From Agrobacterium pusense (GTDB lineage: Bacteria; Pseudomonadota; Alphaproteobacteria; Rhizobiales; Rhizobiaceae): a DNA stretch of 64,000 nt. Made by a program: the position numbers and the translations under genes. The stretch is from assembly GCF_900102105.1 (NCBI RefSeq), contig NZ_FNBB01000008.1, positions 62,001 to 126,000 of the forward strand. The letters run 5' to 3'. Below are positions 19,274-21,288 of the stretch, in pieces. Below the pieces are notes generated by a model, which was not told the DNA's origin, ran no database searches, and was given only the letters and a program-made list of their open reading frames with translations. Every line of letters begins with the position of its first letter. The first letter of the stretch is position 1.

Positions 19274-19390
19274 TCCGTCATTCCGGCCTTGAGCCGGAAT
19301 CCAGTCGACGCGCGTCTGCGCGGCGGGAAAAGTTCTTTCAGCCCAAAGACTTGAGCTGACTGGATTCCGGCTCGAGGCCGGAATGACGGA
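19274..19390. repeat. Rhizobial palindromic intergenic element (33-bp arms)
   Basis: Two 33-bp arms (19274-19306 and 19358-19390) are inverted repeats matching at 32 of 33 positions. Each arm contains its own small palindrome (TTCCGGCC...GGCCGGAA type), so the whole can fold as a cruciform or a long RNA hairpin. This matches the general look of rhizobial palindromic elements whose ends read CGTCATTCCGG. It lies 41 bp after the ribE stop and may protect or end that transcript. Confidence 0.85.
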
Positions 19391-19430: not shown

Positions 19431-20042
19431 TTACGCCGAGGGGAATTCCGCAAGCCGCGCGGCGTAACGCGCCATGGTGTCGACCTCGAAATTGACGAAA
19501 TCGCCCGGCTGGCGCTCACCCCAGGTGGTGACGGAAAGCGTGTGGCGGATCAACAGCACGTCGAAATCGGTGCCATCAACGGCGTTCACGGTGAGCGATG
19601 TGCCGTCGAGCGCCACGGAGCCCTTGGGGGCAACGAATTTCGCCAGATGTTCCGGCGCGCGCAGGCGGATACGCACCGCCTCGCCTTCCGGCTCAACCGA
19701 CAGGATTTCCGCCTTGCCGTCCACATGGCCGGAGACGATATGACCGCCAAGCTCATCGCCGATCTTGAGCGCCCGCTCCAGATTGACGTGGGTGCCCTTC
19801 TGCCAGCTGGCGATCGTCGTCAGGCGCAGCGCCTCTTCCCAGGCCTCGACCTCGTACCAACGCTCATTGCTGCCATCATCAGGCAGTCTCGTCACCGTCA
19901 GGCAGACGCCGCCATGGGAGATGGACGCGCCCATATCGATGGTCTTGGGGTCGTAATTTGTAGCCACCCGCAGACGCACGCCTTCGGCCAGAGCTTCCAG
20001 CTCGGAAACGGTTCCGACGTCGGTGACAATTCCGGTAAACAT
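19431..20042 (-). CDS. ribE: Riboflavin synthase alpha chain RibE
   Basis: 203-aa enzyme dismutating two lumazines into riboflavin. It has two homologous barrels. The first starts MFTGIVTDVGTV and carries ISHGGVCLTVT. The second carries VALDGTSLTVNAVDGTDFDV, the repeated G-x-CLTV/SLTV signature. ATG 20042 overlaps the ribD stop as ATGA, so it is translationally coupled to ribD. Confidence 0.95.
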   Translation of the reverse strand: MFTGIVTDVGTVSELEALAEGVRLRVATNYDPKTIDMGASISHGGVCLTVTRLPDDGSNERWYEVEAWEEALRLTTIASWQKGTHVNLERALKIGDELGGHIVSGHVDGKAEILSVEPEGEAVRIRLRAPEHLAKFVAPKGSVALDGTSLTVNAVDGTDFDVLLIRHTLSVTTWGERQPGDFVNFEVDTMARYAARLAEFPSA

Positions 20043-21283
20043 CAAATCGGCCTTTCATAATTGAAGCAGCGATCCGGCCCGTAGGTGGTTTCACTGATCA
20101 GAGCATAGTCGCCCTTGATGTCGGCACGGCTGAGCGGCGTTTCAATGCCGCCCGTGCCGATCACGACGGGGCTTTCAAACAGCATGATACGATCCACCAA
20201 TCCAGCTTCAAGGAATGATTTTGCGGCAAAGGCGCCGCCTTCGACCAGAAGTTCCGACATGCCGCTTTCGGCGAGGATGTGGAGGAGGTTTTCGAGCGTG
20301 GGGGCTTCGAGGACCTGGACGCCGGCGTTGGTCAGGAGTTGGCGGCGGAGGTCGAGGTTACCCCCCTCTGCCCTGCCGGGCATCTCCCCCTCAACGGGGG
20401 AGATTGGCAAGGGGCTGTCCGCTCGGTCAAATTGCGCCCTAGACGCACCCTCTCCAGCCGTCGATGCAGGGCGAAGCAGCGCTCCATCGTTCTCCCCCCT
20501 TGAGGGGGAGATGCCCGGCAGGGCAGAGGGGGGTAAAGCGGCAACCACCACCGGAACCTCCCGCGCAGTCCGCACCAGTTTCGACGTCAATGGCAATTCA
20601 AATTGCCGATCCAGCACGATCCGCACAGGCGAGCGGTTTTCCAGACCGGCAATGCGCACAGTCAGCTCAGGATCATCCGCGATAGCGGTCCTGATACCAA
20701 CGAGAATGCAGTCGCAGCGCGCCCGAAGTTGGTGCACTGCATGGCGTGACTCAGGGCCGGTAATGGCAATCTGCCCCTCACCTTGCCTGCCGATCATTCC
20801 GTCAGCAGAAACCGCAAGCTTCAGAATCACATGCGGGCGTTTTTTCACCTGCCTTGTGAGGTAACCGGCGAGCGCCCGTTGGGCTTCGGCACGCAGCAGA
20901 CCGGTTTCCACCACGATACCGGCATCACGCAATATCTGATAACCACGGCCGGAGACGCGCTCATCCGGATCGTCCACCGCGACCACGACACGGGCAACGC
21001 CATATTCCACCAGCGCGTTGGCGCAGGGCGGGGTTTTGCCCCAGTGTGAACAGGGTTCGAGCGTCACGTAGGCGGTCGCGCCGCGTGCCGTCTCTCCGGC
21101 CAGTTCCAGCGCCTGGCGTTCGGCATGGGGGCGTCCGCCGATGGCGGTCACGGCTTCGGCGATGATTTGTCCATCCTTGACGAGAACACAGCCGACCGAG
21201 GGGTTGGTCAGCGTCTGGCCCTGGTGGCGAAGCGAAACCTCGATGGCCCGCGCCATGAACCTTTCGTCATCGGCACGGCTCAT
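20042..21283 (-). CDS. ribD: Bifunctional riboflavin deaminase/reductase RibD with an in-frame repeat insertion
   Basis: 413-aa enzyme of riboflavin synthesis. The N-terminal deaminase has the zinc site HAE (RPHAERQAL) and PCSHWGKTPPC. The C-terminal NADPH-dependent reductase starts near KKRPHVILKLAVSADG. The length exceeds the 367 aa of E. coli RibD by about 46, because a palindromic repeat lies in frame between PVVVAALPP and NLDLRRQLLTNAG, adding about 60 residues rich in Pro, Gly and Ser. Without it the protein would be about 353 aa. Conserved motifs on both sides are intact (LLVEGGAFAAKSF after it), so the enzyme may still work with a surface loop. GTG 21286 is an alternative start. Confidence 0.93.
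   Translation of the reverse strand: MSRADDERFMARAIEVSLRHQGQTLTNPSVGCVLVKDGQIIAEAVTAIGGRPHAERQALELAGETARGATAYVTLEPCSHWGKTPPCANALVEYGVARVVVAVDDPDERVSGRGYQILRDAGIVVETGLLRAEAQRALAGYLTRQVKKRPHVILKLAVSADGMIGRQGEGQIAITGPESRHAVHQLRARCDCILVGIRTAIADDPELTVRIAGLENRSPVRIVLDRQFELPLTSKLVRTAREVPVVVAALPPSALPGISPSRGENDGALLRPASTAGEGASRAQFDRADSPLPISPVEGEMPGRAEGGNLDLRRQLLTNAGVQVLEAPTLENLLHILAESGMSELLVEGGAFAAKSFLEAGLVDRIMLFESPVVIGTGGIETPLSRADIKGDYALISETTYGPDRCFNYERPI
20358..20536. repeat. Palindromic repeat element inside ribD (37-bp perfect arms)
   Basis: Arms 20358-20394 and 20500-20536 are perfect 37-bp inverted repeats separated by 105 bp. Each arm ends in its own hairpin (TCTCCCC...GGGGAGA). Read in the ribD frame, the ends give PPSALPGISPSRGE and SPVEGEMPGRAEGG, with no stop codon. 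On the plus strand it is open as well, giving Pro-rich translations of the sort seen in many spurious rhizobial ORFs. It is therefore a mobile or dispersed palindrome tolerated inside a gene. Exact borders need comparison with an empty site. Confidence 0.9.
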
Positions 21284-21288
21284 CACGT

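Follow-up and report, generated by a model that had tools for sequence, protein, structure and literature searches.

The window analysed here is a stretch of 64,000 nucleotides from Agrobacterium pusense (NZ_FNBB01000008.1, positions 62,001 to 126,000). It carries on its reverse strand an intact open reading frame (20042-21286), identified as ribD by the TIGR00326 profile (294.9 bits; cut-off 156.35), whose same-strand neighbours we take, from their translations, to be nrdR and ribE. Pfam gives a deaminase match and a RibD_C match that is split in two stretches. Within this frame lies a palindromic element of 179 nt, arm to arm (20358-20536), delimited by inverted-repeat detection and by comparison of copies. 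Its two arms (20358-20403 and 20491-20536 of the forward strand) are 46 nt each and 98% complementary, each contains a nested hairpin (20382-20390/20396-20404 and 20491-20498/20504-20511, respectively), and they are separated by a core of 87 nt (20404-20490). The initial annotation had recognized perfect 37-bp inverted arms with nested hairpins inside an intact ribD of 413 codons; the inverted-repeat and reading frame analyses bear this out, the 37-bp part being the outer section of the 46-nt arms, except that the gene measures 414 codons.

As read in the RibD frame on the reverse strand, the element contributes residues 252-309 (PPSALPGIS...AEGG; 20361-20533, 173 nt), or 58 residues, without which RibD would have about 356. 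This compares with 357-365 codons in 10 of the 11 Agrobacterium ribD genes that lack the element, the eleventh (G009) having 374. The protein is otherwise a normal RibD, which matches PDB RibD structures from E 4.7e-39 and is modelled by AlphaFold2 from a 60-row alignment with a mean pLDDT of 85.6. The only segment of at least three residues with pLDDT below 50, residues 257-308, falls between a strand (246-250) and a helix (311-320), and since low confidence is confined to the insert, the prediction is that this part of the reductase domain forms a loop without fixed structure.

The element is dispersed in the genome of the window, where it gives 78 BLAST matches (40 of 42 candidates scored) that reduce by hand to at least 33 distinct places, 31 of them two-armed and two one-armed. 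The initial proposal of a dispersed element would have been refuted had the arm been confined to ribD, which it is not. The two-armed copies are 141-181 nt long and mostly end in TTACCCC or TCACCCC. Terminal inverted repeats and multiple copies are traits of a MITE; no clear target-site duplication was found at the flanks of the copies, where there is only weak further complementarity outside the arms. An open reading frame of at least 80 residues spans 12 of the 30 two-armed copies other than that in ribD, and the four longest (L003, L006, L019, and L022) were considered as intragenic copies and rejected, as by eye they look like antisense frames or terminal extensions. The count of intergenic and intragenic copies that the initial annotation had proposed thus leaves the ribD copy as the only one judged to be intragenic in this genome, the rest looking intergenic by eye, without a family search. 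Some copies of the element (L005, L151, and L002) are nested in longer imperfect inverted repeats formed by their flanks. Immediately 3' of ribE (19274-19390) there is another dispersed repeat, about 117 nt in length, and this intergenic stretch has 62 matches in the genome, many places being hit on both strands in a palindrome-like manner.

Among relatives, the two-armed element is present in the ribD of 27 of 38 judged Agrobacterium genomes and absent from the other 11 (39 were sampled; G018, whose contigs end at this position, was left out). Each of the 148 Rhizobium genomes has a ribD, and the 92 loci that were read comprise 62 with a two-armed element, four with a one-armed or partial element and 26 without one; they include all loci with a long match, the other 56 being listed with an N-terminal match only, so the 66 of 148 genomes with the element are a lower bound. 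Rhizobium oryzicola (L042) and Rhizobium sp. SL86 (L050) likewise have it in ribD. It was found in none of 43 genomes of other genera (23 read by arm score, 20 by eye), drawn from 195 with a RibD match. The initial annotation had proposed to look for empty sites, and its reading would have failed had all relatives carried a conserved, non-repetitive sequence there; with element-free ribD genes in both genera the element is, on this comparison, not a conserved part of RibD. That RibD is here a decaying pseudogene or an assembly artefact can practically be dismissed: palindromes are hard to assemble, as the broken contigs of G018 illustrate, but similar inserts with full-length frames occur in dozens of separate assemblies, and the genome of the window has a single RibD match at E<=1e-40.

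The presence of the element on a quickly computed tree of the ribD flanks (153 rows) requires 11 changes. By eye, the insertion point in Rhizobium is displaced along the loop by some 6 to 13 residues relative to that of the main Agrobacterium clade, to a later position, and these differing insertion points make it likely that there were at least two separate insertions into ribD. The cores do not decide the matter, as those of Agrobacterium and Rhizobium are only weakly alike, about as much as either is to other copies in the genome of the window, and a single origin is neither shown nor excluded. Four element-free Rhizobium genes within occupied clades (G247, G066, G315, and G310) have a 'PPT' stretch resembling the outer right flank of the element, and we infer that these stretches may be scars of in-frame loss. 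In the Rhizobium inserts of G287, G266, G261, and G311, part of an arm is replaced by YRGRATGLDPSFGPP / GGEARAGEAGAIDPV, still in frame, which looks like the insertion of another repeat into the element. The same loop of RibD is filled in a genome of another genus (L173 / G082) by a different repeat (PRPRGEGARRADEG...LSPHAGRG), which is presumably of a known type.

A new observation, judged from alignments, is that the core of the element is inverted between species, and one element would accordingly encode two distinct in-frame peptides. Of 20 main-clade Agrobacterium species that were compared, 8 have an insert similar to the opposite-strand translation of the core in the window, and gapless comparison of 77 pairs of cores in the two orientations, designated A and B, gives 68% identity when one is inverted (53-76%) versus 34% directly (28-44%). 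For the pair G000/G005, the gapless inverted identity of 71% was not reached in 10,000 shuffles; with gaps the test is weak (76.5% versus a shuffle maximum of 77.6%). A second Agrobacterium clade shows the same, where G030 and G038 are 79% identical inverted and 37.5% directly over 120 nt (BLAST E 3e-29, minus strand). The flank tree needs seven orientation changes for A/B and two for C/Cinv, with the starred branches alone forcing three (A) or four (B), while the core tree needs only two for A/B, with weak support (4 of 17 inner branches starred). Hence frequent flipping of orientation, which had been considered, was toned down. What fits best is that a few inversions were followed by the exchange of core alleles between species. 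G005 and G006 have flanks that are about 99% identical and opposite orientations; the core of G006 shares 92% with the core of G032, and 72% with that of G005 once the latter is inverted. In the AlphaFold model of the inverted-core allele of G005, only residues 258-308 fall below pLDDT 50.

There are 88 two-armed copies in ribD, of which G345 was set aside for a gap of Ns, and in 85 of the remaining 87 the insert is open and a multiple of three in length. By comparison, 60 frames from the 30 other copies in the genome of the window, taken on both strands, include 18 that are open, 14 that are in phase and seven that are both. The arm edges are out of strict phase in 19 of the 88, and only three of the genes have lost the frame; in G353 a frameshift within the insert is compensated, without stops. 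Two Agrobacterium genomes (G026 and G013) have stops or a frameshift in ribD caused by small indels in the arms, mostly in homopolymer runs, and it is undecided whether these are sequence errors or real losses. When 67 natural inserts are read on the opposite strand, stops appear in 20, versus none on the strand that is read, and restoring G026 and G013 makes this 20 versus two. The would-be-translated strand is therefore the one that is kept open. The unread-strand stops are distributed as 0/9 in orientation A, 8/8 in orientation B, 1/5 in the C group and 11/45 in Rhizobium; the eight of orientation B are the same TGA, perhaps one event, and the unread strand of one orientation-A copy (G012) was taken in a shifted frame, the other eight being in matching phase and open. 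The significance of both the frame and the strand contrasts is overstated, since related species are not independent.

These data bear on whether the insert could remain untranslated, because it is cut out of the mRNA or because the ribosome skips it at the very stable hairpin, such that its frame would be irrelevant. The RNA (20340-20560) does fold with -158 kcal/mol (z = -9.65; 0 of 200 shuffles equally stable), and the stops or frameshift found in the inserts of two species would be accommodated. Against this, it is only the unread strand that has stops, none of the 21.5 stop gains expected in 57 cores is seen, and an Rfam search of the region returned no family at the gathering score (three matches at E<=1, every one below it). 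We regard an untranslated insert as very unlikely. Still less probable is that the inverted core is a phase-variation switch by which two forms of RibD alternate within a strain. Both orientations are open in each of two Agrobacterium clades, and so is the unread strand of the eight orientation-A copies with matching phase, but all eight orientation-B copies that were read have a TGA on the unread strand, and the two changes on the core tree versus seven on the flank tree point to few flips with allele exchange.

The frame, then, is maintained; the peptide, as far as substitutions can tell, is under almost no constraint. Parsimony on the cores of the 57 copies, out of the 88, that fall in six alignable groups (orientation A, 9; orientation B, 7; Rhizobium, 18, 9, 9, and 5) gives 649 changes, of which 191, 225, and 233 (29, 35, and 36%) are at codon positions 1, 2, and 3. 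Outside the insert, 68-76% of the differences in ribD are at position 3 in five of the six groups, the sixth not being computable. Single core groups vary, and in some of those from Rhizobium the share of position 2 exceeds that of position 3. The nearly equal change at all codon positions stands against the possibility that RibD has come to use the loop, in binding or regulation, with selection on its sequence, as do the range in insert size (53-266 nt between the outer arm ends), the element-free genes inside occupied Rhizobium clades and the different peptides obtained from inverted cores. Its retention in many species of two genera might suggest such a role, and the peptide encoded by the arms does stay similar, but copies outside genes also have arms that resemble one another. 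We consider an adopted loop very improbable.

The element family is, from the evidence of frames and profiles, also present in frame in two other Rhizobium genes, cobN and ftsY, which is a new observation. Ten copies with long frames were read in Rhizobium, nine open throughout and one broken off, and three of these are in cobN (L307, L308, and L309; the two that were scanned both match TIGR02257) and one in the N-terminal part of ftsY (L311; TIGR00064, 317 bits), while the remainder look antisense, terminal or unclear by eye. Among the best 30 cobN loci from 60 genomes, a DNA match to the arm lies inside the open frame in 25, at two sites in 11 of them, and all 30 are included if the arm peptide is counted; some of these loci have a stop in the matched stretch, and the count is restricted to arms within the open frame that surrounds the anchor. 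For the best 30 ftsY loci, also from 60 genomes, an arm match is present in 26. These fractions are biased upward, since the query used to rank the loci itself bears the element. No report of palindromic inserts in rhizobial ribD, cobN or ftsY was found among the matches listed in a search of the open literature, which covered titles and opening abstract lines and left out most subscription papers, and four arm fragments used as letter strings had no occurrence in the open literature.

The palindromic elements of Rickettsia are dispersed palindromes of 105-146 bp that occur in frame in genes for conserved proteins, and a Rickettsia Gmk carrying such an insert is translated and active (PMC2229807; PMC10969869); protein-coding palindromic repeats of Wolbachia are also cited there (PMC2229807). 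The initial annotation had inferred that a comparable process acts in Rhizobiaceae, and this is supported by the empty sites, the 33 places and the in-frame copies in cobN and ftsY. The present element shares in-frame insertion into genes for conserved proteins (ribD, cobN, and ftsY) and differs in its free-living Rhizobiaceae host, 173-nt insert and 46-nt arms, in occupying the same gene loop in many species and in having a core that is found inverted. It works like the Rickettsia elements, a likeness in mode that implies no kinship. Among rhizobial repeats, the Rhizobium-specific intergenic mosaic elements (RIME) are said to have been described by Osteras in 1995. They are dispersed (PMC2573895; PMC2245857), and the present element resembles them by description only, without sequence comparison; RIME are described as intergenic, and by eye the other copies in the genome of the window look so too, the copy in ribD being intragenic.

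Other bacteria also have repeats in coding sequence. The GTAG/CGTC REPs are palindromic repeats found in open reading frames of several bacteria and considered neutral there because of a position in loops or linkers (PMC3733652). They are units of 20-40 bp with short stems, in contrast to the 46-nt arms and TTACCCC ends found here, and an assignment to them was rejected, as the criterion is not met by units of 141-181 nt that mostly end in TTACCCC or TCACCCC. Reviews also mention MITEs that are inserted in frame in other bacteria. The Correia elements of Neisseria are a MITE reported to invert (PMC10969869), and that inversion is discussed for promoters near genes, while the inverted core in RibD is coding. 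Long perfect inverted repeats within translated genes are described for Nematomorpha mitochondria (PMC6649704), where both arms encode conserved protein, unlike the extra, tolerated segment proposed here.

We therefore consider it highly probable that a non-autonomous palindrome of Rhizobiaceae sits in frame in a loop of the RibD reductase domain and is translated as a tolerated, disordered passenger of about 58 residues, with selection on its frame and hardly any on its amino acids, and with cores that have been inverted and alleles that have been exchanged. Translation of the insert, as a flexible loop at the protein surface, is very probable, which is inferred from sequence evolution in the absence of peptide or transcript data. 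The dispersal, the element-free genes, the maintenance of frame and the inverted cores are established; the disorder is predicted; and how the element inserts and is lost, and how cores invert and are exchanged, is, like translation, inferred. The palindromic repeat would have entered the reductase domain at a surface loop, in frame, and would be transcribed and translated with the gene, and the enzyme would tolerate the loop. Selection would hold the frame open and hardly act on the amino acids, so the core would drift about as fast as neutral sequence. Owing to the long arms the core could invert, by what we infer to be recombination between them, and core alleles would pass between species, both orientations being open in the RibD frame. 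The suggestion in the initial annotation that a translated insertion is a new protein segment made from selfish DNA holds for a tolerated passenger, whose translation is inferred, and does not extend to a demonstrated new functional segment, given the near absence of constraint.

Protein-coding palindromes are best known from Rickettsia and Wolbachia, which are obligate intracellular bacteria; in-frame cases reported from other bacteria are shorter REPs and some MITEs. Culturable rhizobia with inserts in ribD, cobN, and ftsY make it directly testable whether such segments are translated, tolerated or used, dozens of occupied, inverted and element-free natural alleles are available for comparison, and the contrast between the read and unread strands offers a simple sequence test for the translation of palindromic inserts. 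More tentatively, the palindrome may be a recurrent maker of new protein segments in Rhizobiaceae by in-frame entry into several conserved proteins, both of its strands being used in turn, through core flips that the arms permit, for different stretches of one enzyme, and its alleles circulating among species.
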